From positions 11,363,855-11,427,854 of the forward strand of contig OZ038455.1 in the NCBI GenBank assembly GCA_964036195.1: a DNA stretch of 64,000 nucleotides, written 5' to 3'. Positions within the stretch are counted from its first letter, which is position 1. Each line of letters opens with the position of its first letter. Below are positions 1,734 to 46,500 of the stretch, piece after piece. The position numbers and the translations under genes were made by a program. Under the pieces are notes generated by a model. The model worked only from the letters and a program-made list of their open reading frames with translations. It did no database searches and was not told the origin of the DNA. This DNA is from Sphaerolaimus hirsutus. Its lineage: Eukaryota > Nematoda > Chromadorea > Monhysterida > Sphaerolaimidae.

Positions 1734-4700
1734 GTTTGTTGAGGTTTCCTGTGGCTTGGTGGGGGTTTCTGGTGTATGGTTTTTATAAACTGTAGGAATG
1801 ATTTTGTAAAAAAGTGAGTGAATTTTTGAGGTACTTCACATTGGGTGATTTAAATGGATTTAATTTGAGATGTCTGATTTTTTAGACATATTCATCAAAC
1901 CGAGTAAATCTAAGCATTCAAGAAAACCATGTAATTTTCAACATGAAACCATGACCAACCATGAATAACAGTTGAGTAAGCATTTAAGGGGAGATAGACG
2001 GCTGGTATCTAATTACGCAGTGGCGGAATGCCACAAGTGTATGTGACATACGTATCTGCGGTGTAAAATGTGCGGCACATGGCAGATACATTTGTTTCTT
2101 AATCAATACATGCATGAAATGAAGGTCGTATCGGTAAAGAGAGTGATTGTGCACTTCTTTTCCGATATAGACGACGCCATGGGGGCCTGACTATGAAGGT
2201 GACACTTCGAATTTTTTTACATATGAAGGGTGTGCTTCTAAATGTACCGATCTACAAAAAATCGATTTTGACATAATCGCAATTGAAAGTTTGGAGTATG
2301 CAATACCCATACATGGGTATTGATTATGGGAATTTTGGGTATGGGTATTTCGGCCATATTGTTGAGTATCCACATGCATGGGTATAATCATTGTTTATAC
2401 ACATAACACTAGCTTTATAACATTAAGTGAATCGTATTTTTTGTAGTACAGTACCTTTTTAAGGAACAAATTGGTAATAGCATGTAGATCGGTACCTTTT
2501 AAAGCACAAAATCAGATACCGTATTGGCTTGTTTTGAACCCCGGGCACTGTATTTTTTCACAACGTCTTTACAGTGGCACTCAATTCAAGCATGGCACTC
2601 AATTCGAGCATGGTACTGTATTATTTCATAAGACATTTACAAGATACTGCAATTCCATAACAGATACATATTGCTCAATATTGGGCCGATCACACGCTCA
2701 CGTTTCATACTTCACTAATCCAGCGCAAAACCTCAACATATGGTCCCGCCCTTTGTGGGGTTTGCTTTTGCCGCCACCGATGTGAACCACTCCCAACGAC
2801 TAAGCATTTAACAACAGAAGCGGCTCGTGCCATGTGCATGCAGTCATGTTTTATGCAGACATGATGCGCTACCGCGTCACGTTTCTTTCTATTTGGGGGG
2901 GCACTCAATTCAAGCGAGGGTGTAGCGGCCGTAATGAAAACCCGGCCGTAATGAAAGCCTGGCCGTAATGTATTCCCACCCGGCCGTAATGAAAGCCTGG
3001 CCGTAATGTAGGGGATGCTACATTACGGCCAGGCTTTCATTACGGCCGGGTGGGAATACATTACGGCCAGGCTTTCATTACGGCCGGGTTTTCATTACGG
3101 CGAGGCCCCCGTCATTCAAGCATGGTACTCTATTGTTTCATAACGCGGTTACCCTGGCACTGTATTCGAGCATGGCACTCAATTCAAGCATGGCACTCAA
3201 AACAAGCCAATACGGTAGATGTAGATCGGTACTTTTACCCATAGTAAAAAAACATAAATTAAGTTTTTGCTGCTGGATGATGCCGAGCTGACATCGGTAC
3301 TTTTAGAAGCACAAAAAAATAAAGTGCACATCGGTACATTTAGAAGTAAAATTTTGAAAAATGTGTGTAGATCGGTACTTTTAAAAAGACAAAAGCTGAA
3401 AAAGCTTGTAGATCGGTACTTTTAAAATTTCAAAAACTGTATTTTGCGATTTTTTTGCTGTTTTCGACCCCCCATATCTCAAAATTGAATTTCGCACCCC
3501 CCACATATTATATATATTTTTGCAGCGTATTTTTATGGGGACCCCAAAAATGGTCCTAACTCAAATTTGAAAAATTTGTAGATCGGTACTTTTAGAAGCA
3601 CACCCTTCATATGAAAGTGTCCCAAAATAGTGACGCTGCTGTCATAGCAGCAACGTCAAATTAGGCCTACACCCATGTTTTTCAAACTTAAGTTCAGTTA
3701 ACAGTTAACAGGCTGTTACTGTTCTTTAGCGCAGTTGTAGTGCTCTCAGCCCTCGCGCGAGAGGTTTTGGGTTCAAATCCCAGGGCCACCCTCACGTCAG
3801 CGCTGACAAGCCAACATCAGCGCTGGCACTGCGCCACTGCGTATACAGATACCGGCCGTCAATCTCCCGCATTTAAGAATAAAGTTCAAAATAAGTAAAA
3901 TGATAAATGAAAAGTCAAAAGTAAAATAAGTAGTGATGAGTAATTTGCCACTTTCGGAACTTGCCCCTGGTCGATTTGTGTTTTTTTTTTTTTGGGGGGG
4001 GGGGGGGAAAGAGGTGTAACCCCAACATTTTCTGAACCCGCAATTAAACAGTGGAAAAAACCCCATTCCCATGCGCAGTGGTTGCGGATAACTTCGAACG
4101 CCTTACTCAACCAGTGGCCACACCGAACGGCCCGTTTACGTGGGCCACGGATGGTCACCAGCCGCACAGAATTCAAGCCGGTTCCATGATCAGTGTGAAC
4201 TCACAGAGCCACGACATATTGCAAGAGCTGCTGATGAGCAATGCTCGTTGGTTATGGTTTTGGTTTCTTTTCTCCTTTGGGATGTTGGCACTAGGGATGG
4301 CACGTGTTTTTTAAACCGTTTTTTAAATAAAAAAAAAAGCAGCCAAAACTTTTAGTACTAAGCACTAATTTTTTTAGAATAAGCAAATCATTTGTAAAAA
4401 TGTTGACAAGTGCCATCAAAAAGGATGAATTTTTATCATGAGACAATTGAAGTTGTTAATAAAGAGCTGATGCAGAAATGTGTGTAAACATCAAATGGTA
4501 CCTTATCGTCGCAACGACGTTCAATACTTTTCGATGTTGATGCTCCCATTTTTATTTTTATCTCACTAAAGAAATTTGAACCCGAGTCGGGTCGGACAGA
4601 TATTCTCTCAACTCTGCACCAACTTACAGCGCTGATCTTTTCCATGTTCAGCGGCGCACTACAATTCGAACTTTCTGAAATATGGACGTGAATTGACACT

Positions 4701-7700
4701 TCTCTTTGAAGCATTGAAGCATTCTCTTTCTCACTCAAAACCCCACCCCCAACCCCAGCGCGCACCGAAGCCGAAGTCACCCCAAACGACCTTCTGCCAA
4801 CACCCCCGGACGGGGGCGTGGGCTGGCTCATGGTGTTCGCCGTGTTCATGTCCAACGTGCTGCTCGACTGCGTCGGCTACGCTTTCGGCATTCTGCTGCC
4901 CGCCATTCAGCAGGAGTTCGGCTGTGGAAAGGGGGCGGCCGCGCTGGCTGGCGCTGTTTGCATGGGCATTTGCTTTATTGAGGGTGAGGGGTGGGGGGTT
5001 CCAGTGGTTTTTTGTTATGTAGGCGGTAGGGATGGCACGTGTTTTTTTAACCGTTTTAAAAAATAAAAAACGTTTTTTTTAAAAACAAGCAAACAGGGTC
5101 GTTAAAAAAACGGTTTTGTGCCATCCCTAGTAGGCGGGTGGGTCGATGAATATGATGGATTTATGCATATTTGCTTTGATCAGAAAGAAACATCGCTAGA
5201 TGAAAACTACTAAAAAAGCACATAGCCAACCAGGGGTCTCCTGGGGGGGGGGCTGCCCCCTAAAAAATCGCTATTATTATCTACCCTAAGAAATTATCTA
5301 CTTGTAACCTGTTATTAGCAAATATCCCCTTTCTGCACTCTATGCACTGAAAAAGCTTATATTTTTCACTCGTGCCTAGGGTTCAAACGATATGACATTT
5401 CGATATCGATATTCGATATTCGATATTGAAAAATGGTCGATATTCGATATTTCGATATTTTCAATATTCGATATTGCGATATGCTTTTGGTATAGCAAGG
5501 CATATTTCAAGTGGCATATTGTATTTTCATGTGGTTGCACACATGTTTAATCATCTCTTTACTGAAATTTGAATGGTAAACACCTTCCCGGACAAGTTCA
5601 CCACCCATTTTTTTATTTCACTTCGAATGCAATATCTCCGTCCATGGGGGTGTTATAAAGCTGAAACTTTGTATATATAAAGTTGTAAGACCCCTCTACT
5701 CCCCAACAACGGGGGAGGTGCGGCGACTCACTACAGGGTGGGTCGCCGCACCTCCCTCATTGTTGGGGAGTAGAGGGGTCTTACAACTTTATATATACAA
5801 AGTTTCAGCTTTATAACACCGCCATGGACAGAGATATTGCATTCGAAGTGAAATAAAAAAATGGGTGGTGAACTTGTTTGGGAAGGTGTTTACAAGTGAT
5901 TTTAACAAGCTTTACATCACTCAATGGTGGAAAATAGAAGAAAAACATGATGAATCAAAGTGTATCAGACAAATAACAATTGGTAGATATTACAGTTCAT
6001 CCTAACCTACTTGCTTAAGGGCATGTTGCAAAAAAAGGTATATCAGCGTTTTCTGGCTTCAAATTTAGCACTCCAACAACAACAACATTATAAATACTGT
6101 ACTTTTACTCATCAAATACAATACTATAAGCACATCATATCAACCATAAACATCTCAAAATGAAAATGAAAAGTAAATTTGGGGACACAATACAGGTTCG
6201 ATATATCGAAAAAATGGTCGATATTCGATATTTTTTCAAAATTTTCGATATCGATATTCGATATTCGATATTTTTTCAAAATTTTCGATATCGATATTCG
6301 ATATTAAAAAAATGGTCGATATCCGATATTCGATATTCGATATGATATATCGTTTGAACCCTACTCGTGCCCACTCGCCCACAATCTACTCCCATCGCAG
6401 GCCCCTTCATCGGCGGTCTGGTGAACAAGTACGGCGTGCGGCCGGTGTCCATGGCCGGGGCACTTTTCGTTGTGTTCGGCCTGGCTCTGAGCAGCGTCGC
6501 GCCCAGTCTCATCGTGCTTTATATCGGGTTTAGTATTATTGCTGGTTGGTGAATTTTGGATAAGTTTTGAGATTGGGTGATGGGCCTAGGATTTCTCAAT
6601 CCGGGGGGTAGTCTAGATTTAGCAAATCTCTGAGGGTTGGCTAGGTAGCAAATCGTTTGTCCTAAGAGAGATAGTTGAACTTCTTTTTGGGTGGGTGGAT
6701 CAGTCTATAGCCGTTTTCAATGTGTGGAAGGACGAAATTCAAGATGAAAATTAGTTCAAAATAGGTTTATAAGCACATAGTACCAAAAATAGCTGAAAAT
6801 AAGCAAAATAGCACATGAATTACGATTTTGAGCGAAAATTGGGATAAAATCTCTCACAAGTCGCTCCAGGTAGCTAGGTGATTGAAGGGGGGGGGTGGTT
6901 CAGGGGATAGACGTAGGGTTCGAACGAAATGACTTTTCGATATCGATATTTGATATTCGATATTTTTTTCTGAAACTCGATATTCGATATCGATACGATA
7001 TGGAACCTCGATATCGATATTCGATATTGAAAAAGGGTCGATCTTCGATATTTCGATATTTTCGATATTTTTTCAAAATTTTCGATATCGATATTCGATA
7101 TTCGATATTTTTTCAAAATTTTCGATATCGATATTCGATATGAAAAAATGGTCGATATCCGATATTCGATACGATATATCGTTTGAACCCTAGATAGACG
7201 CCAAAGTTTTTGCATCCGGGATAGATAAATAGCCGAGCGGCCTCCGGGATAGATCCCCTCCGCCCCACCCCCCCCTCTTTCCTACCCCAGTTCTCAGCTT
7301 TTTCTCTATTCCAAATAGTTTTTTTTTGTGTCGGCTACCTTCGTAGAGCTTTCTTCACTCTACCCGCAGGCATGGGTTTCGGCATGGTCTACCTACCACA
7401 ATTAGTGCACATCGGCTACTATTTCGAGAGCAAACGCGCAGTTGCTACTGGAATCGCGTCGGCCGGCGGCGGGGTGGGCACAATTGCTTCGGCGCCCGTG
7501 ACTGTCACGTTGCTCAGACGTGCGTTTGGTGGCTTTGATGATTTGATTAGGTCGAGAAGATCCTTGTTTTGGGTGGTGTGATTGAGTGTGAAGATTTGAG
7601 TGCATTTGTAATTTAATTTCCTGTTTTCGATTGAATTTGGTTTTGATTGGGAGATTTTTTTTAGTTTTTTTTGGAAGCACATTGTGTTTGGCAGCGCATA

Positions 7701-13700: not shown

Positions 13701-16700
13701 CTTTAGTAGTACATCCTGCATTACTAAGGCTCAAATTATTTGGACAAAACTTGAAACGTGGGCGTAGAAACGGGCCGGCGGTGGGCGACAACACGTCGCC
13801 GCGCTTCCCGCTGCCGTCGCAGCAGCCCGCGCCCGAGGTGCGCTTCGGCGCCGTGCCCGCCCTGAGCGTGTCTAGACAGGTCTCCCAGCTGACCGAGGGA
13901 GACTCGGACAGACAGGTTGGTTCTGGCGCGCAAATCTAATTTCAAAGTCATTGGAATTAAAGTTTTATTTAAATCTTCCGTAACATGAGATAAAAATCAA
14001 GGACAGTTAAGAAATTGATGTATAAAAGTATCTTAATTTTTGGTAAATACCGATTTTTTATCAATCTTTGATACTCGGCATACGCTCTGAACATGGGCCT
14101 TTGCAAGGATGGCCCAAACCAGGGGTCTCCAAGATTTTGGCCCTCGCGGGGGCTGGATAGATAGCAAATCGCTCCTCCGGAGGGATAGATAGCTGAAAAA
14201 TTTTTCTGGGGGGGGGCTGGCGGGGGCACAATATATATGTTTTTTCAAGGTTAAGAAAGCAGAAAGGGGAAAAAATCGCTAATAATCAGTTAAAAGTAGC
14301 CAAAAGTAGGTTTTAAATGGCTAAAAATAGGTATATAACCATGCATATAGCCGGAAAGCACGATTTTGAAGGTGAAAAACTATTAAAAGGTGCGAAAATT
14401 AGTGATTTTGAGCGAAAATTGGGGTAAAATTTCTCAAAAACCACTCCAGATAGATAGATAGCTGAGCGATTTGGGGGGGGGGGGTCTTTGGGGGTAGTAG
14501 CCAAAATTTTTGCCTCGGGATAGATAGATAGCTGAGCGGCCTCCTGAATAGATAGATAGCTGGCCGATAGATATATAGCTGGCCGATCAACCTTCAAATC
14601 AACCTTAACAAACAATCAAACCCCCCAAACCCCCCTCAGATCCCCTCCCGCACGCGCGCCGGTTCCCGTCTGAGCGGCGCCGACGTGGAGAAGTTCGCCC
14701 GGCTGCGGCACGCGCTCGGCGCCCTGGACGACGAGTCGCAGATCGGCGACGGGGCGGAACACTCGGCCGACGCCAGCGCCGCAGCTAGTAGGAGGTTACT
14801 TTCCCCTGAACAGCCCACCCCCCCCCCCCCCGCAAATTGCCTAGCTATCTAGCTATCCGGAGCGCTTTTGAGCAATTTTACCCTAATTTTCGCCCAAAGT
14901 CGCTAATTTTCACATTTGTTATAGATTTTCACCTTTAAAATCACTAGGTCATGTGATTTTATGCATATTTTCAGCTTATTTGCATATTTGCATATTTTCA
15001 GCTTGCCGGGTATAGTTAAATGCGCGCCGGTTCTGGATGCGTCATGGGTTTACACGCGTAATGGCACATGGCTGGTTGCGCTGCCACCGCGCAACCATTT
15101 CGGCTTGGCGCGACCCCCTTTGACGCCGTCAAATGGCGCCATTCCATCGCTTGCCAGATGGCCGCACAATGCAACCATTTAGCTATTTACGTGGACACTG
15201 TCGCATATTTGCATTTTCACCCAGTCTCCGTTATTTTTCTTGCTAACAGCATCTTTTTCAAAATCATACGAATAAATGTCATCCTCGCAGATCGTCATTC
15301 AAACGTGGCATATCACGGACGCGGCCGTCGTGGAACACGTCCAGGTGCGACACGTTGGCGCTGCGCACACTGGTACACCACCGAAATTTGGGAAACTAAT
15401 AGATCTGTTTTGAACGCATTTGAGTTTACCAGAATATGGTGTCTGTGTCAACTACTGTTGAAAGCGATCATAAATCCGCCATTCTGGTGAATTCAAATGT
15501 GTCCAAGACATATTTACGAGTTGCCCAAAATTTAACGGTGTACTACTATGCCCGACCATTACACCCGCATTCATCAACCAACTAAAACGCGTGTGCGCCG
15601 CGCAGACAAAATCTCCCACCACGTCCACCGCCCCATCCATACGGGCGCGCCGCGAGCCGCATGTCCGCGCTGGACTACGGCCGGAGCATGAGCCGACTTC
15701 ACGCTGCCAACAACGGCCTGGTGCCAGTCCCGGACCCTGTAAAATGACCCGTAAAATGTCAAATGTCACGCAAAGCGTCAAAAGTCACGTAAAATGCCCG
15801 GTAAAATGGCAGACGTGTACGTTTCCCATTTTACCGGCCATTTTACGTGACTTTTGACACTTTGCGTGACATTTGACACTTTACAGAGCACTTTACAGGC
15901 TCCGGGACTGCCCCCAGGAGGCGGCCACGTCGATCGTGTCGATGGCGTCCGTCAAGCCGGAGGACTTCTCGCGACCGTTGTACAGGAAGGACGTGTTGTA
16001 CGCGGGGAGTGTGGTGGGCCTGGATGAGTGCAAGAGGGTTGGTAACGATTTGCAGGCGTATAGACAGATCCAGGTGGCTGTGCCTGTGGTGCAGGGTGAG
16101 TTGGGTGGGTTGGGCGAGCGGTTTTGAGGGTGGTTGTGTCCGGATTGCGGTTTGATCCTGCCCCTTTTCACGAATGATTTGAACGAAAACTATACCAAAA
16201 GGGTTGATTTCACTTGCATATCATTCCGGTGTCACTTTGCCGTTTTTTGGTGAATTAGCAAATCAATCGGGCAAGGAGTTGATAAGTCCACACCTGCCAA
16301 GATATTTGTGGATAGAAAAATAGGAAGAAAGTCGATAGGACCAATCAGGGATAGGAAATGGGGGTGGGGCAGGCCTGATACGCACACGTGCCCGATACGC
16401 ACATATGCCCGTTTTTTTCACTTTACTCATATCTGAAAATCACTTGAAAAAGTGTCAAGTGAAAAAAACGGGCATATGTGCGTATCGGGCACGTGTGCGT
16501 ATCAGTGCACGCCCATGGGGGTAACCCCCCCCCCCAAAAAAAAAAACCCCGCCCAGCGATATATGCATCTATACCGGAGGGCGCTCAGGTATCGATCCCC
16601 CGTGATTAGGGTTGGGACGATATGACTTTTCGATATCGACATTCGATATTCGATATTTTTTCTGAAACTCGATATTCGATATCGATACGATATGGACCCT

Positions 16701-19700
16701 CGATATCGATATTCGATATTCGATATTAAAAAATGCTCGATATTCGATATCGATATTTCGATATTTTCGATATTTTGCTTTTGGTATAGCAGGGCATATC
16801 TCATTTGGCATATTGCATTTCCATTTGATCACAAACCCAACTGATCATCTCTACTGAAAAGTAGATGATACAAATTTAAATGGCACACAATGATCAAAAT
16901 GAGAAAATGATTTAAAAATGTGACAGATGTGGTAAGGAAAAGGTGCCAGCTCCATTTATAGGTGCCATGTCATGGTACCATTGATGTTTTCATGGTGTAA
17001 GTAGCTATTAAACATACATATACTCTTATGTGAACATCTGAGAGAGCCTTTGCACAAGATTTGATGCTGCCGCAAGTGCTGAAACAAAAATACCTGTCAT
17101 GTGAGAACAAGGTGCGCGCTTGCGCGCAAAATTTGTCAAAATTGCTTATCAAATCGCCTTCTAATAGGGGTTACGTACCCTATCCCCCCATGGACATCTT
17201 CCCCCCTGGGTTGATATAGCCCTTGAGGACTACATCAGCCCGAGGACTACTTCGACCCGACTTTTATAACGTGGGGGGAAGTAGTCCTCCATACAAAATA
17301 GTATTAAATAGTACATTGACCCCCGCCCACTCTAATTACTCTATTGGGGCGTCTGTTTGGCCATGGGAATGTGTGCTATGTGATTTTTTATTTTATCTAA
17401 TGTGATGCAAGAACAACACTTGCATCAGTTTAAAAGTATTTATTGACGCGTGGCGCACCACAGTTATGCACGCGTCTGTTAGGCCCATTGGCATCGATTA
17501 TTGATTGTGTGAGTGCATGAAGAAAAATGCATGCAACTTCAAAACTCAATTTCTCGGCCATTTCTCAGCCGATTTTTACCACTGAACACTTAAAATGATC
17601 AGAATCACATGGAGATTTCATTTTTAATGGTGTTGCATGTGTAGCAGTATGGTAATCATAACAGACAAAATGCCAATGGACCACAGACAAAACATTAATT
17701 CAACACAGACAAAAAATCAATGCAACACAGACAAAACATCAATGCAACACAGACAAAACACCAAGGGATCACAGACAAAATGCTTTGGCATTTTGTCGTG
17801 TTGCATTGGTGTTTTGTCTGTGTTGCATTGATGTTTTGTCCGTGTTGCATTGATGTTTTGTCTGTGTTGCATTGATGTTTTGTCTGTCATGATTACCATA
17901 ATGCAACACATGCAACACTGTTAAAAATGAAATCTCAATGTGATTCTGATCAGTTTAAGTGTTCAGTGGTGAAAATCGGCTGAGAAATGGCCGAGAAATT
18001 GAGTTTTGAAGTTGCATGCATTTTTCTTCATGCACTCACAAATTCGATAATCAATGCCAATGGGCCTAACCAACGCGTGCATAATTGTGGAGCGCCACGC
18101 GTCAATAAATAATTTTCAATGCATCTGTTGTCTTATGTTACATAGCAGTCAAGACAAATGGGTCAAAAGGAGGGTGGCCCACATTGAAAGTGCAAACTCA
18201 AATTGCATTTTCATCGAAATGCATTTCATACATTCATTTATTTATGTAGACATATTTTAACTTAGAATGAGATTCTTTAAATTGTGTTTTGCATTTCTAA
18301 TTCTATGTATAGATGTGGTTATACAGCTCTTTACATACACGATAAAATTGAATTTGCACTCAAGAATTTTTTTTCTCGCTTCACTGACTACACACTATAC
18401 AATAAAAACTACCATATCCCATCCAAATAAAACCACTTTTTAACTCTCATTACAATTACATTGCTCTCACAATTTAACACATTCTCTCACATTGCTATTT
18501 GAGCCACACTGTAATGTGATGGGCACTATAGTTTTCAGCATGCAGAGGTCACCTAAATATTGACCTTCTGCTGTGACCTTCGCGGGCAACAGGTCAATAT
18601 GTACGCAAGGCCGCATGCAGCGGGTCAATGAAATGCATAATGGGTTGATATAGTCCTCATAACTCAAGGACTGTCGGGCGATATAGTCCTCGAGGACTAT
18701 ATCATCCCCCGGGGGAAGATGTCCATGGGGGGATAAATACCTGTAATCTTCTAATAGTGCCATTCCTGGCTTATTTGAAGTCAGGCCCAGGGAGTATAGA
18801 ATATCGAAAATATTGAAAAAATGGTCGATATTCGATATCGATATTCGATATTTTTTCAAAATTTTCGATATCGATATTCGATATTCGATATGAAAAAATA
18901 GTCGATATCCGATATTCGATATTCGATACGATATATCGTCCCAACCCTACCCGTGATCGTAGCAGTATCATTCTTGTAAATGATCTTTGATTGTAAATCT
19001 TTGCCAATTTCTTTTTTTTTTACATTATAATTTTTTGCCATTTCCAGACCCGTGGGCGGCGCCGCCGGAGGTGAAAATCGTTAAAAGACACCGCTTCGAT
19101 CTGAGCGCGTTTCTCAGCGTTCTTAACGAGATGGCCGATTTTTCGATGGTCAAGAAGCCGACAGTTTTGTGCCTGTGCATTGCGAATGTGTTCGGTCGGT
19201 GTTTGAATTTTAGAGTGTAGGGAAGAGGAGCGGTTTTACGGTAGACTTTTACGAGTTCTTTAACCGTTTTGTATTAAGGAAAGGCGTTTTTGCCTTTTCA
19301 AAACAACCTTTTTGGTTTATTGGCCATTTGTCCATTTTTCAAAAAAAAGTACAGCGTTGAAAAACATCCGTTTTGTCGCTAATTTTTTTGCAAAACGTTT
19401 TTGCATTGAAAAACGTTTTCCCATCTCTAGTAGGACATGTAGCGTATCTCTACCTTGAATTTCGATTGCGCAGGGATGCTGGCTTACTACGTGCCATTTG
19501 TTTTTCTTCCGGCCAGGGCGGAGGCCTTGGGCATCACCCCCGAAGACGCTGGCTTACTGCTGTCGTTGATAGGTGAGTCATTTCATTTTGGAATTTTTTT
19601 GGTTTTTCTTATGACGAGGTTCTTTTCGGGTTGCAGTTAGATTTATACACTAGCGGCCAGAATAGTTGAGACTCTCCACCGTTGTCTCATAAGAGAAATT

Positions 19701-22700
19701 TGTTCAGGTAAGGTCCGACTGTGTTTGCATGCACGCCACTCCTCAACCGCTGAGCGAAAATAGTTGATATTGAAATATAATGTAATTTTATGTCGGGGCT
19801 AACGTGAAAATCGATGGCATCTTTCTATGGCTCCCCTTACCTAAGATATGGTGGGTCTGAAAAAAAGTAAATTTTACCAAAAAAATTTGGGTGTCGCCCA
19901 GAACTAACAAAATTTGCATGTATAAATAACTTGCTCATTTGTCGACCGATTTTTGTCAATCGACTTTTAAAATGATCACAAATGATTGGAGAGTTCATTT
20001 TTGAGGTCGAATCAGCGATGTAGAATTGTGCATACCGTATTACCTCGAATTATCTCCCCCTTGAATTAACCCCCCCCCCTCGAAATACCCCCCCTAAAAT
20101 TCGGCTGAGGAAATAATAAATCCCCCCATTTTTGAGGTCAAATCGGTGATGTAGAATTGTGCATAAATATATCGATTTGGGCCTGCGGTTATTGATACGG
20201 ATGAAAGGCAGAAGTTTGAAGTGCTATAACTTTTGATTGGTAAGATATATCGATCTGAATTTTTCGGTATTGTGTTTCTCTCAATCAATAGTATAAGAGA
20301 GCATGTTCAGAAACAAAAATTATTTTTTTGTGTTAAAAAAATGGGTAAATCGGCATATGATATTTATACGATAATATGACGTCATAAATGGAATCTGCAG
20401 GTTGTCCCGATCATTGTAAGAGTTGAATGATCCAAATCGGCCCAGAAATGGCCAAGTTATTAAGCTTCAAAGTCAATCACCCAGCTTGGCCAGATTTTTT
20501 TATATTTATTGACCACCTTTTTATAGACCCCCCCCCTTATCTAGTCACTGGGGTGTCACAAATTTTTTAGTCATAGTCCCGACCTGAAAACCCAACATAC
20601 TCAAACAGCATCAAAATTGGGCCAGGGACAAGCGATTGAGAAGCAACAAAAGGGTGGTGGACCCCCAGTCTCCCATTTCTCTAGGGTGAAAAGTCTCAAC
20701 TATTCTGGCCGCTAGTGTATTTTGTCGAGTATCGTGGATTTGTCATATACTGTATCTTTGACCTAATTTTGGAATGGTTTTTGAAATCGTAACAAACAAG
20801 TCTGTCTAAATGTATGTCTATTTCCAGGCTGATCCAATATATATCAATCGTAAATACTTTCCAACCGTTAAAAAACGGCTGGGACCCTAGCGCTTTTTTA
20901 AATAATGGCGTTTAAAAAAAACGGTGATAAAAACGTTGGTCATCCCTACTCAAACCCCAAAAACCAACCCCCCCCCTCACCACCCAGGCGTGTCGAACAC
21001 GATCGGGCGGGTGGCCTTCGGCTGGCTGGCCGACCGGCGGTGCTGCACCGCGCTCGGCCTCAGCAACGGCGCCATGGGGCTGGCGGGCGTCATGTCCTGC
21101 GCCCTGATGCTCGTCACCCAGTACTGGGGCATGGCCGTCTATGCGGTTGGGTTCGGATTGGCTGCGGGTTGGTTTGGGGGGGGGGGGGAGGGAAATGGGT
21201 CCCTACCGGGAGGGGGTGGTGCTGATCATGTTAGGGGTAGGGTTGGTAAAAATCGAGTTTTTAACGACCCCGATTTTTAAAAAAATGATCCGATTAATAA
21301 AAAATCGCTTGCCAACCCTAGTCGTGGGTCTACGATGGGGGTCCATTAATCGACTAGATATCGTTCTATCTATCTATCCCGGAGGTTGCCCAGCTATTTA
21401 CAATTCTATCCTGAGGCGAAAATTTTGTCTACCATCCTCTAGTGATGGCCAGCGCTTTTTTAACCGCTTTTTTAAAAAAGCTCAGGAGTCCCAGCACGTT
21501 TTTTAAAATACCCCCGCGTCCCAATCAATCACGGAACCCCCCATCCGGTATAACTAAAAGTTAGGGGTATTCTAGATTTTGACCCTATGGGTGTTGGATA
21601 GAGATAGCTGAGCGGCCTCCCAGATAGATAGCTGGAACAAAATGGGGGGGGGGTTGCGTGGGTTCGATATATCGGCTTTTTCAAGGTGTATAAGGGTGAA
21701 AAATCGCTAAAAGTAGGTTAAAAATGGGTATATAGTACTAAAATATGCAGTTAGACACATGAACTAATGATTTTGGAGGTGAAAATCTATAAAGAGCTAT
21801 GAAAAATAGCTAGTTTGAGCGAAAATAATCCTATAGTTTCTCAAAAATCGCTCCAGATAGGTAGATAGCTGGCCGGTTACGGGGGGGGGGGGGTTAGGGG
21901 ATAGTAGCCCCCTACGGTACCCCGCACCCGTTATAACAAACAGTTCATTCATAATCTCTCCGCATTGCCCCATCTCAGCCGCATTCATCGCGCTCACGTC
22001 CATCGTGCTGGTGGAGCTGGTGGGGCTGGAGGCGCTCACGAGCAGCTACGGCATCATCTGCTTGTTTAGGGGCGTCGCCTGCCTTGTTGGACTGCCGCTC
22101 GCTGGTGGGTGGGGGGTGATATTTTTGTGTTGTTAGGGGGTTTGAGAAGTTCGGGTGGTTGGATGATTTTTTAGATCAGTTTTTCACATTGATGATGACG
22201 CACCACGCACTGAAATTTTGTGTTATGCGTTCGAACGTTTTTTGTATGCGGAAGCGGAAATCATCTTCACAATTTCTAATTTTTTGATAAAAACACTGGC
22301 CCACTAAAAGTGTCGAGTTTGGAGTAAAAGTTCCTTCAAGCAATTTTTGCGCGTCGGCCTAACTATTTCCTTGTACACTTTCGGTTTGGTAGATTCGTTT
22401 TTCCACGTTTGTAGTTCCGCGTCCAAAAAAAACAACGTTCGAGGCAGAATTCCGTATACAACTCGGTTGCCATTTTGCAGGGCATTTTCCATGACTTTTG
22501 ACACTTTGCATGACACTTGACATTTTACACGGTCTGGCACTGGCACCTAGATAGCAACACTACCCACACCCTTCCCCAGGCGTAATCTACGACGCGATGG
22601 GCAGCTACGACATGTGCTTCGTCTACGCCGGCGTCCTGTTCACCGTGTCCGCCCTGCTCGGCCTGCTCACCTGGCTGATCCAGTTCCGCGCCGCCCGCCT

Positions 22701-24485: not shown

Positions 24486-24645
24486 CTGGTACCGGTCCCA
24501 GACCCTGTAAAATGTCAAATCTCATGCAAACTGTCAAAGTCATGGAAAATGCCCTGCAAATCGACAAACGTACGTTTGCCATTTTACATTACTTTGACAC
24601 TTCGCATGACATTTTACATTTTACCGGGTCTGGGACTGCCCCCTG
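24486..24645. mobile_element. intact intergenic copy of the introner-like MITE
   Basis: Left CTGGTACCGGTCCCAGACCC, right complement CAGGGGGCAGTCCCAGACCC, with inverted arms of gtcaaagtcatggaaaatg units. Same architecture as 15718-15917 but outside any recognised gene; its right end is ccctg rather than cccag. Confidence 0.75.
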
Positions 24646-34461: not shown

Positions 34462-35500
34462 CAGGGTTGGTTTTATAAAAATTCATTTTAGTAAAATTGT
34501 ATAAAAATTGTATAAAAATTTTATTTTAATTTTATTCTTGTTTCATTTTATTTATTTTATTTTATTCCCAAAAGTCATTAATAAAATAAAATGACACCAT
34601 TTTACAAAAATTTTACAAAAATTGTACAAAAATTTTACATTAAATCAGAATCATGCATGCAAGGCCAGAAAAATGTTATGATCAGACCTATACTTGAAAA
34701 ATCTGTGACAAAGTTGTCCCTTACTTTTCAAAATTTGCATGCAGTAGGTGTTGTTAGCTGGCTGCAAGTGTCAAGTTACAATTATTGATAAGAATGGTTT
34801 GCATTTTCAGTAGAAGGACTACTGAGCTGGGCACATTTGTGAAATGTCATGCAAAGTGTCAATTGTCATGACAAATGTAAACTAAAGTGTCAATTGTCAT
34901 GACATATGTAAAGTAAAGTGTCAATTGTCATGCAAAATGTCAAGTGTCATGTCAAATTTCAAGCGAAGTGGCCATTGTCATGACAAATGTCATGCAAAGT
35001 GTAAATTGTGTATCCAAATCTTATGTTTTTGTATCCAATGTTCACATAAGATTTGGATTCAACAACAGAATTATTTGGATACAAAACATAAGATTTAGAA
35101 ATAAAACATAAGATTTGGATACAATTTGCTTGACAATTGATACTTTGATTTTAATATGTCTTGACAATTTACACTTTACTTTACATTTGTCATGACAATT
35201 GACACTTTGCATGACATTTGACACTTTACAAAGCTTGGGACTGCCCCCAGATCGATGAATAAACAGGTAGAAACTCAAGCAATGAGTTAAAATTTCACAA
35301 AAAAATATGAATTTTTATACAATTTTACAAAAATACGAATTTTTATACAATTTTACAAAAATTATACAAAAATTGGAATTTTTATACAATTTTTATGTTT
35401 ATTCTTAAATTTTCCATTTTATTTTATTTTATTTTATTCTTAAATTTTCTATTTTATTTTTATTTTATTTTTATTTTTTTCTGAGATTTTGCCAACCCTG
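34462..35500. mobile_element. AT-rich hAT-type MITE, TSD CTTGTGAA
   Basis: Ends CAGGGTTGG / CCAACCCTG with exact duplications CTTGTGAA (34454-34461, 35501-35508). Same family as 11719-12480, and like it carries a ...gggactgcccccag (35253) segment with tgtcaattgtcatgacaaat arrays related to the introner-like MITE. Confidence 0.9.
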
Positions 35501-43528: not shown

Positions 43529-46500
43529 GCTTGTGTTTTGTATGTAAATTGACTCAGTTGTAAATTGTACGTAATTCCGCTTCATGAAAAGGGTACTATT
43601 TTTTGGGTAATGGTGGCATGTGCCACTCCAAACACTTTCACTATTTTGGAGTTGATAAGTACACCCACTTCGTTAAAATGGTGCCATTTTGGAGTTGATA
43701 GTGCCACTGGATGAGAATGGTGCTATTTTGGAGTTATAGCACCACTCTATAAGAGACTCATAGTCATAGTGAGACTCAAAAAATGGGCACAATTTCCTGT
43801 GCTTTTCTCTCAAAAGTTTGGACAACATTACAAAAAGTCGACAAACCCATATCGTTTGAAGCAAAAAGTTGACAAGTCAAAAGTTGTTTGCAGCAAGAAG
43901 TTAAAAAGTACAATTTTATTTACTCGACTTTGCTGCAGTATTTTCGCGAGGTTGATTGCTGTAGAACGTTTGCCAGAATTTGAGCTGTCCAATTCTAATT
44001 GATGATAAATTGGGAAAATTGAGTTAAGCCCAAAAATGGCAACGTGTCTTGATCCTGCACATTTTTGACTCAACCGCAGCAGTATGAACTTCGCTTTTTT
44101 TCCAGTGCGCGGGGCTGGTGCCGCCGCCGGACGGGGGGTACGGGTGGGTGGTGGTGGCGGCCTCGTTTGTGGCGAACGCGATCGTGGACGGGATGATCTT
44201 CACCGCCGGCCAGGGCTTCGCGCCCGCCTGGGAGCGCTACTTCGGCGGCGGCAGCGGACCCACCGCATGGACCGTGTCGCTGCTCAGTGGATTCTATTTG
44301 CTAGGCGGTTTGTGTGGGTTGTCCTTCCGGTCATCGAGTACTGCACCGTTTAGCATCGAATAATTTTCCAATATCCATTTAGGAATGCCTAACTTTTGAT
44401 TTATCCAACGACTTACCCCCCTTATACCGTATTTTCTCTAAATACCTCCGGGGGTTTATTTTTTCAGGTGAGATTTTTGAGGGGGGGTTAAACGAGGGGG
44501 TATAAATTCATAGTGGCCATTTTGAGGGGGGTATTTTGAGGAAATACGATATATTTATGGAAAATGCGTACGTATTGAGCAGACGCCAACGCCAACGCCA
44601 ATGGCGCCATGGTGCGGTTCCTAGAACAGGCGCCAACGCCATGACTCCGCTCTGCCAATTATGCGGCCAAATTTTAGGGGGAACGACGCCCCCCTCCCCA
44701 TAAATCGATAGTTAAAAGTCGGAAAGTTAAAAATTGATGGTGCTAGAAAATGAAAAAATGTATAGAAAAACATTTTTGCTGACATACCATATTCCTTCGA
44801 AATAGCCCCAGGGGGTTTATTTTTTCGCACTGCAAATTTTGAGAGAGGGTATTTCGAGGGGGCGGAGTATTTCGAAGAAATACGGTAAATCGCCCGCCAC
44901 ACGCAGGTCCGATCGTGTCGGCGCTGGCGAACTACTACGGGTGCCGGGCGGTGGCGCTGGCGGGGGGCTTGCTGGCGTCGCTGGGCTTCCTGCTGAGTCT
45001 GGCCGCGCCCAGCCTGCCCATCCTCTACCTCACCTTCGGCGTGATGGGCGGCCTCGGCTTCGGCATGGTCTTCTTGCCGTCCATCGTCATCGTGAGCTAT
45101 TACTTCCAGAAGAGGCGCGCCCTGGCCACAGGCATTGCTGTTTGCGGATCGGGCATAGGTTTGTTTCCTGTATGGCCCTGAACGGTGTCAGTTTATCGAA
45201 TCTCTGCCGGTGGCGAATAATCATAAGGCGTCAATAGCTCCTTGTTCCAAATTTTATTAGCGAGTAAGTTATGCCCTACATGTGCCTACACTGAGTTATG
45301 CTTTTAATTAAGTTGTTCAGTAGGCGGTTACCCCCCTGCGGGCGTCTACCCCCCCCCCCAAAAAAAACCCTCCAGCTATTCACGCCCTATCTAGCCCAGC
45401 GGCCGCTCAGTCATCGTTGACCGTTTTTTCCTTCTACTCCTTGAAAAGCCTATATATTGAACCCCCGCAAACCCCCCCCCAACGCCCCAACCACCCCCAA
45501 CAATGTTTTCAGCTATCCCTTTGAAGGATCGGTTTACTATCTATACCAACCCTCGCGGGGGTCTAAATTTACGATGTGCCTCAACATGCAAACTCTCAGC
45601 GCATCTAACTCTCAGCGCAACTAAAATTGTTGCCAGCAGTCCATCTATGCGCGGCGGCACGATGGCATGACAGTGCAGCCAGCCGCACAATCAAAGATTT
45701 TCGCCGCACCGCGCCGTGTGCTAGTGGATTTATGCTTCCGCAGCGTCATGCCGTCACAAGGCACACAGTACAATGGCACAAATGAAAGTGGGACAATTTG
45801 ATGTCCCGATGATGGGCACAGAATTTAATTTAATTAAAGGTTTAATTTGTGCCACAATTTTGCCAATTCCCGACCCGGAACTGGGTCCACTGTTTAGCCC
45901 TGAAACCAATTTCATTTGATTTCAATTTCATTTCAAACAAATGAAACTCATTATGTGCCTCTCGTCTGCAGTTTCAGAATGTATGGGTTCATTTGTGTAA
46001 AAAAATGTGTGATCGTGCCGCCGCGCCCAGGACGATTAGATGCACTGGGACTGGGATGTGGCACAGCAAGGTCTTTGATTATGCCCCCTCACCGCTCCTA
46101 CATTGGGTGCATAGATGCAAGCGCCGGGGGGCTAATTAGATGCGCTGGGAGCTTAGATGCACTGCGAGTTTCCGCCGTCCAAATTCACTAAACCGCTGGT
46201 ACAATTTATCATCTTCTACTATCAGGCATGTTCGCCTTCGCACCACTGCTGGACTGGCTGATGCAGGAGTTCACCTGGCAGCAGACTCTGCTCATCATGA
46301 CCGGCATCACGCTGAACACGCTCGTGTGCGCCGCGCTCTACCGGCCGCTCACCCCCTCACAGCAGCAGTTCGAACAAGTATGTTTGCATTATACACTCCA
46401 CAGCCATACAGCCAACTGAACACCCCAAATCACTTTAGCTGTCTATCTTGTGCTAGTTTTGATTGCTTATGCACTGATTTTGGTTCAAAAGTTTGAGCCG

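Follow-up and report, generated by a model that had tools for sequence, protein, structure and literature searches.

The MCT-A gene lies in a stretch of 64,000 nucleotides (hereafter the window) and raises the question of whether a hairpin-forming mobile element can constitute exactly one intron of a gene and whether the same element has created introns elsewhere in the genome.

The Predicted Intron of MCT-A

The nearest relatives of MCT-A are nematode and arthropod MCTs (36-41% identity). In a tree of 36 rows the gene is sister to those of nematodes (support 88/97), on a long branch and with deviating composition. The window contains two further MCT-like genes, MCT-B and MCT-C, whose first-exon motifs (at 44127 and 58626) have the same surrounding residues. 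The features of the intron and of its flanks are:

15606..15720, + strand: MCT-A exon upstream of the predicted intron, from its reading frame and its alignment with nematode and arthropod MCT loops; the start is approximate (acceptor CGCAG at 15601-15605)
15718..15720, + strand: left target-site triplet CTG, the last codon (Leu) of this exon, from the ends compared over copies
15721..15914, + strand: palindromic non-autonomous element of 194 b (family consensus 192 b), from the inverted repeat, the genome copies and the consensus
15721..15722, + strand: predicted 5' splice site, a GT that belongs to the element, whose terminal GTGC lies outside the hairpin; from the GT of exonic copies and the fold
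15915..15917, + strand: right target triplet CAG, the predicted 3' splice site, from the comparison of ends and the frame restored on removal
15721..15917, + strand: predicted intron, phase 0, 197 nt, with an in-frame TGA if kept, and frame and homology regained if removed
15918..16095, + strand: downstream MCT-A exon, EAATSIVSMASVKPEDFSRPLYRKD...VVQ, from its frame and the MCT loop alignment

In detail, the inverted repeat 15717-15816/15819-15918 is composed of 100-nt arms, 88% complementary, with a spacer of 2 nt. The element starts at 15721 as GTGCCAGTCC and ends with CCCC at 15914; CAG follows at 15915-15917, and the downstream exon resumes at 15918 with GAGGCG. The first-pass annotation had claimed that a hairpin element is exactly one intron of MCT-A, and this is confirmed by sequence: excision of 15721-15917 joins exons which align with the nematode loops. 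The join of 15720 to 15918 gives the loop SRLHAANNGL followed by EAATSIVSMASVKPEDFSRPLYRKD, which aligns through the junction with nematode MCT loops (Setaria: SRLSQSSQMKGAQSLVSVASSVNPKEFNKPLNRRD). The alignment has gaps of one residue, the first of them two residues ahead of the junction and another farther along. The related claim that the exon frames fit only when the element is removed also holds: the exon frame, if read into the element, reaches a stop (TGA, 15745-15747), the intron length of 197 b is not divisible by 3, and the MCT homology is regained on removal. The intron of the window folds at -128 kcal/mol, as compared with -45 on average (sd 4) in 100 shuffled sequences of equal base composition, and its predicted structure resembles that of the family consensus with small bulges.

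The element had also been credited with supplying both splice sites. This stands for the donor GT, which is the element's own, and is refined for the acceptor, which seems to be the right copy of a duplicated target triplet.

A Family of Palindromic Elements

The genome searched was that of the window itself (348.5 Mb, 762 contigs). A search with the whole element gave 4123 first-look candidates, 40 of which were scored, the window's own among them, and showed near-full-length matches. The scored copies other than that of the window have about 84-93% identity, and 80 matches came from the 40 scored candidates, the palindrome matching on both strands. The 27-base terminus, with up to three mismatches, has 5322 + 5271 = 10,593 genomic matches, compared with none for its reversed control in the same genome at the same threshold, which excludes a chance origin of the window match. 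With two ends per element, these matches suggest a copy number of around 5000. Exact ends amount to 1845 of acceptor type and 1345 of donor type genome-wide. In 19 of the first 20 mapped copies the acceptor-type end has a donor-type partner at a distance of 123-229 b, the exception being L066, in which the nearest donor-type end is 580 b off.

The ends of the family are GTGCCAGTCCC / GGGACTGCCCC. A majority consensus built from 39 full-length copies has a length of 192 b. Its positions 5-188 are self-complementary with no mismatch and form a 184-base palindrome, and only the initial GTGC and the final CCCC depart from the symmetry. The RNA fold predicted for the consensus leaves these four bases at either end and the CAG unpaired and makes all the rest a single stem with a 4-base loop. 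The near-full-length hairpin which had been noticed in the window copy is upheld both by its own arms and by the consensus, in which no more than the four outermost bases on either side fall outside the perfect palindrome. The arms include motifs that resemble a donor (GTAAAA) and an acceptor (TTTTACAG). All 32 copies listed as exonic have GT at the donor end, and members of the family are up to 98% identical to the consensus. Terminal inverted repeats and a target duplication of the type of DNA transposons (MITEs) are both present.

Three relatives of the element are found in the rest of the window:

22464..22547, - strand: partial relative just before the last MCT-A exon, from blastn and the printed sequence, its outer end read by eye
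24489..24642, + strand: second family member, shortened, with CTG on both sides and flanks without coding signal, from blastn and the end search
34838..35252, no strand assigned: degenerate longer relative with inverted repeats, ending in ...GGGACTGCCCCCAG, from blastn, the printed sequence and the inverted repeats

Other palindromes and repeats occur as well. There is a perfect palindrome at 2928-3101 (84-nt arms, 100% complementary), one within an MCT-A intron at 5576-5893 (156-nt arms, 96% complementary) and a short one at 16375-16505 (52-nt arms, 98% complementary). An inverted repeat with 322-nt arms, 91% complementary, occupies 17429-18119, in the MCT-A intron 3' of the exon that follows the element. 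AT-rich arrays of CGATATTCGATAT-type repeats at 16620-16760 and 18790-18945 flank a block within an MCT-A intron.

Elsewhere in the genome, the copy at L027 (97% identical to the consensus) seems to lie antisense at the exon end of a gene on the opposite strand; a Pfam scan of the opposite-strand ORF gave no match. L102 and L103 are near-identical loci for Srx-like GPCRs which carry the element at the same codon in differing lengths. The shared codon in two near-identical loci suggests a duplication after the insertion.

Reading Frames around the Copies

Three sets of copies were compiled. Set A, the identity set, consists of the 39 copies most similar to that of the window, besides the window copy itself; set B of 30 loci with an exact terminus of type CCTGGNGCC; and set C, the positional set, of the first 60 of the 1845 acceptor ends in contig order. 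The frame test was applied to 72 elements (that of the window, the first 20 of A, set B, the first 20 of C and the neighbors in these loci), with removal extending up to an AG within 6 bases of the element end or, otherwise, over one triplet.

Coding-like DNA is found on both sides in 33 of the 72 scored copies. After removal, the best frame continues from left to right in 28 of these 33 (one third expected, p = 1.5e-9) and is lost in the remaining five. The frame is kept in 24 of 26 copies with an AG within 6 bases of the element end and in 4 of 7 lacking such an AG.

In set C, 21 of the 60 copies have coding-like flanks that share one frame once joined, whichever the strand, a count which retains L083, L087, L090 and L091, where the donor end is missing or at the edge and left ends are unreliable. 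The respective controls, 9 of the window's 122 CCWGG sites (p = 7.5e-6 against 21/60) and 2.3% of 4000 random window positions, come from the window alone, which is gene-bearing, and the genome background may be lower. By score, 39 of the 60 positional copies have no coding-like flanks; the score misses some exons verified by homology (e.g., L069, L073, L102, L107, and L109). By coding score alone, which is a poor indicator of strand in the GC-rich coding DNA of this genome, the coding-flanked copies of the positional set divide into 14 sense and 7 antisense, a weak bias (p = 0.19), and those of the identity set into 19 sense and 6 antisense, a clearer one (p = 0.015). If the share of 21/60 holds, hundreds to perhaps two thousand coding introns may have originated from this family.

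Homology at the Junctions

Protein homology continues from one exon into the other in 18 copies, MCT-A included, all 18 in gene orientation, and removal of the element together with one target copy restores the frame in every one of them. L103 is left out of this number as a near-duplicate of L102. The first-pass annotation had asked how many copies throughout the genome coincide with introns; by sequence, these 18, drawn from the window and the three sets, lie at predicted intron boundaries.

Pfam matches above the curated cut-offs cross the junction in 15 of 39 sense ORFs and in none of the 21 antisense ORFs scanned (Fisher p = 5e-4), the ORFs of both kinds having been chosen non-randomly, by length and coding score. 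The domains are Oscp1 (twice within L069), STAG (L073), immunoglobulin I-set (L010), rhodopsin-type GPCR (7tm_1, L017), GH63 glucosidase (L025), Slowpoke (Slowpoke_C, L028), 3-PAP (L021), UDPGT (L022), Xan_ur_permease (L107), RRM (L134), E1_dh (L106), Srx-type GPCR (L102), Med8 (L126), and secretin-type GPCR (7tm_2, L082). Comparison with PDB adds AMPK gamma (L084) and a vesicular glutamate transporter (L109) to the junction-spanning cases, and its alignments are free of gaps at the junction for AMPK gamma, BK, cohesin SA-1, BCKDHA, VGLUT3, and one RRM protein.

In the other sense ORFs, matches stop short of the junction in L062 (LRR) and L094 (cadherin), and 22 of the 39 have no Pfam match at E 0.01. 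Among the antisense ORFs, matches below the cut-off cross the junction in L081 (CcmB) and L089 (PHD_3), and others lie beside it in L101 (UBM, above the cut-off) and L090 (zinc finger, below).

On the basis of their left and right triplets, the 18 verified copies are divided into 10 CTG/CTG, 6 CTG/CAG (including MCT-A), and 2 CAG/CAG. The single OSCP1-like locus, L069, has two members of the family in coding stretches (1500-1677 and 2323-2512), one CTG/CTG and one CAG/CAG.

The Target-Site Duplication

The same triplet stands on either side of the element in 35 of the 54 positional copies that were usable and in 25 of the 39 copies of the identity set. These counts leave out set B, which was selected on a terminus beginning with CCTGG, and drop copies without GT or with coverage below 0.7, so that 54 of the 60 set C copies remain. 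Among the first 100 listed of 1100 matches there are 94 distinct donor flanks, with a left triplet of CAG in 42, CTG in 36, CGG in 6, TAG in 4, CCG in 4, and others in 2; a C precedes the triplet in 52 of the 94. CAT triplets also occur at the flanks of the element, and a G stands after the triplet in 71 of 97 fetched copies.

A CTG...CAG terminus as part of the element itself was considered and rejected: the occurrence of CTG/CTG, CAG/CAG, and CAT/CAT pairs shows that the flanking triplets derive from the target. In MCT-A the outer CTG and CAG represent the two copies of such a 3-base duplication of the target, which differ here in the middle base.

Duplications of three bases with CWG are a trait of PIF/Harbinger elements, and the 3-base CWG-type duplication of the present family conforms to it. 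This duplication is what points to a mobilising transposase of the PIF/Harbinger type.

The two mixed combinations are unequally distributed, with 16 copies of left CTG and right CAG and only 2 of left CAG and right CTG (p = 0.001; 39 copies of set A and 54 usable copies of set C). Selection in exons for a right-hand AG accounts for this direction. The A at the right end may have come by later mutation or during the insertion, for instance if a base of the donor site was kept. Mean identity to the consensus is 0.946 for CTG/CAG, 0.936 for CTG/CTG, and 0.941 for CAG/CAG copies. A view of the CTG/CAG copies as old CTG/CTG copies repaired by mutation finds no support in these similar values, and the equal ages of the triplet classes disfavor slow repair of the acceptor.

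Insertions That Probably Become Introns

The proposal of an introner-like MITE in the first-pass annotation is supported by the 18 copies with homology across the junction, all in gene orientation and with the frame restored, and by the frame match in 28 of 33 coding-flanked copies. On sequence, the family has the attributes of an introner: many copies in the genome, predicted intron boundaries in many unrelated genes, and gene orientation. The element is very probably an introner, that is, a non-autonomous palindromic cut-and-paste DNA transposon which makes its own insertions spliceosomal introns in an ecdysozoan animal.

The sequences show that the element has frequently inserted into coding exons, on the strand of the gene wherever homology reveals it, and that it duplicates a target triplet which is mostly CAG or CTG and often has C before and G after it (C-CWG-G). 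What follows might run thus. Once transcribed into pre-mRNA, the palindrome would form a single hairpin from which only GTGC and CCCC-CWG protrude unpaired; the hairpin would bring both splice sites together, and its stem would hide the donor-like GTAAAA and the acceptor-like TTTTACAG inside the arms. The donor GT would be provided by the element and the acceptor by the duplicated target, so that a right CAG would result in a GT-AG intron and a right CTG, seemingly, in a GT-TG intron.

Two other origins of the observed pattern were weighed. Precise somatic excision could restore the genes by removing the element from DNA and not from RNA, and the restoration of the frame whatever the target triplet is what precise excision predicts. 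Excision should be indifferent to strand, however, and all 18 verified copies are in gene orientation; the bias of the right triplet to AG (16 CTG/CAG against 2 CAG/CTG, p = 0.001) also speaks against it. On account of the orientation bias, removal at the DNA level was set aside as a highly improbable explanation. Least credible of all is an ordinary MITE placed within an old intron of MCT-A, or replacing it, whose ends coincide with the splice sites by chance. The genome is indeed rich in palindromes (37 inverted pairs in the window with arms of at least 45 nt within 1500 b, many of them overlapping), and many members of the family lie in DNA without coding signal, but ends and splice sites coincide in the same way at 17 further verified positions, where both signals sit on the boundary of element and target. 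An introner remains the preferred reading of the MCT-A intron.

The CTG/CTG Class

GT-AG ends are present in the window copy and in the other copies with a right CAG, whereas the right triplet is CTG in 10 of the 18 verified copies, which carry CTG on either side of the element and lack an AG where the exons meet. The genes concerned include AMPK gamma (L084), the BK channel (L028), BCKDHA (L106), a VGLUT-like gene (L109), and MED8 (L126). In these 10 cases the exons abut exactly only with an intron of the form GT...CTG. The sequence TTTACAG, which ends in AG, is located 18-20 nt upstream of the TG in the 12 CTG/CTG copies examined, and the use of this AG would shift the frame in most of the 10 verified ones. 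The internal GTAAAA and TTTACAG were also considered as the true splice sites and rejected, as no combination of them keeps the frame in 9 of the 12 copies examined; the exceptions are L028, L084, and L109, in which such a combination exists.

Whether GT-TG introns form a working class is about evenly balanced. A fuller proposal falls just short of an even chance: that hundreds of constitutive GT-TG introns were seeded by one family, CWG acting as the 3' splice site in the form of either CAG or CTG by means of a hairpin of about 90 base pairs which exposes only the ends of the intron. The upstream TTTACAG would perhaps serve the early recognition of AG and the exposed WG the second step. A single change of T to A would give a CTG copy a canonical AG, and would explain the CTG...CAG form in MCT-A.

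The contrary reading, that exonic CTG/CTG copies are not spliced at TG and represent broken genes, segregating alleles, or introns ending at another AG, has a considerable probability, which nevertheless stays on the doubtful side. TG 3' splice sites are exceptional; those of human, in the excerpted text of PMC2374985, occur solely as an alternative to an AG no more than 28 nt away. Among the AGs listed, a downstream AG that keeps the frame is available in 8 of the 10 verified copies at a cost of 1 to 27 codons, at distances of 3 nt (L022), 18 (L069 and L084), 30 (L126), 33 (L107), 36 (L134), 60 (L102), and 81 (L028), and the in-frame combinations of internal sites in L028, L084, and L109 offer a further way out. 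On the other hand, L106 and L109 have no in-frame AG among those listed downstream, and in L028, L084, and L134, which are aligned with PDB entries, the downstream AGs would delete aligned residues. The host genes of the verified CTG/CTG copies are usually conserved in animals, with open reading frames on both sides of the element, and the 10 copies whose homology spans the junction all run in the direction of the gene (p = 0.002 under random orientation), which would be odd for dead insertions. Nor are the CTG/CTG copies any younger (mean identity 0.936 against 0.941 and 0.946), and transient alleles are therefore unlikely to explain all of them.

Comparison with Known Systems

Introners of DNA-transposon origin were reportedly described by Huff in 2016 from Micromonas and Aureococcus. 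In the excerpted text of a survey of 3,325 genomes, introners are present in 175; just two of the groups of animals and land plants have them, both of these being animals, with copepods named (PMC9860276). Splice sites supplied by target-site duplications are described there for introners. The present family is similar to the introners of DNA-transposon origin as that excerpt portrays them (PMC9860276): non-autonomous elements with terminal inverted repeats and short target duplications, which become introns, carry one splice site and obtain the other from the duplication, leaving the length of the mRNA mostly unchanged. It differs from the introners of this excerpt (PMC9860276) in its ecdysozoan host, whose MCT-A stands beside those of nematodes, in a palindrome that is perfect apart from the splice-site bases, and in that 10 of the 18 verified copies would end in TG. 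Among the titles listed on introners and nematodes, most subscription journals being outside the search, none announces a nematode introner.

The introner elements of Amoebophrya, parasitic dinoflagellates, are comparable in their hairpin-forming inverted repeats, which join the exon borders, and in their non-canonical splice sites, and their direct repeats of 3-5 nt can be likened to the duplication described here (PMC7789003, in the portion available). In the same portion, their splice sites are highly diverse and their inverted repeats 8-20 nt long; in contrast, the present introns have donor GT and acceptors AG or TG only, nearly the whole intron is one stem, and the host is an animal (PMC7789003).

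Another animal with mass non-GT/AG introns is the larvacean Fritillaria borealis, and introner transposons with weak splice sites are mentioned in the passages available from that paper as a possible source of divergent splice sites (PMC13326754). Following the same passages, Fritillaria departs from the canonical form at both ends and has a duplicated U2AF, whereas the present family retains GT and has TG in place of AG in one class (PMC13326754). The human TG 3' splice sites of PMC2374985 likewise have TG at the end of a U2-type intron, and the AG 18-20 nt upstream in the present copies falls inside the 28-nt limit. The human cases, as far as the excerpt goes, concern 36 genes and are always alternative to AG, whereas here TG would be the main site (PMC2374985).

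The family agrees with PIF/Harbinger, whose CWG duplications are mentioned above, in a 3-base duplication that is mostly CAG or CTG and often flanked by C and G, and departs from the CWG pattern in that CGG, CCG, TAG, and CAT triplets also occur. A further likeness is the presence in gained introns, PIF/Harbinger being among the elements in recently gained fungal introns in the excerpt of PMC8476143. In conclusion, as judged from its sequence, the family appears to work like known introners and to differ from them in its host, its perfect palindrome, and its choice of AG or TG.

How new introns arise has long been asked, and reports of introners in animals are few. With thousands of copies of a single family in this genome, birth, orientation, choice of splice site, and later repair of the acceptor can be measured. 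If the CTG class is spliced at TG, this would contradict the finding in human, as given in the excerpt of PMC2374985, that TG is unable to serve as a constitutive 3' splice site, and it would link an RNA hairpin to the choice of the splice site.
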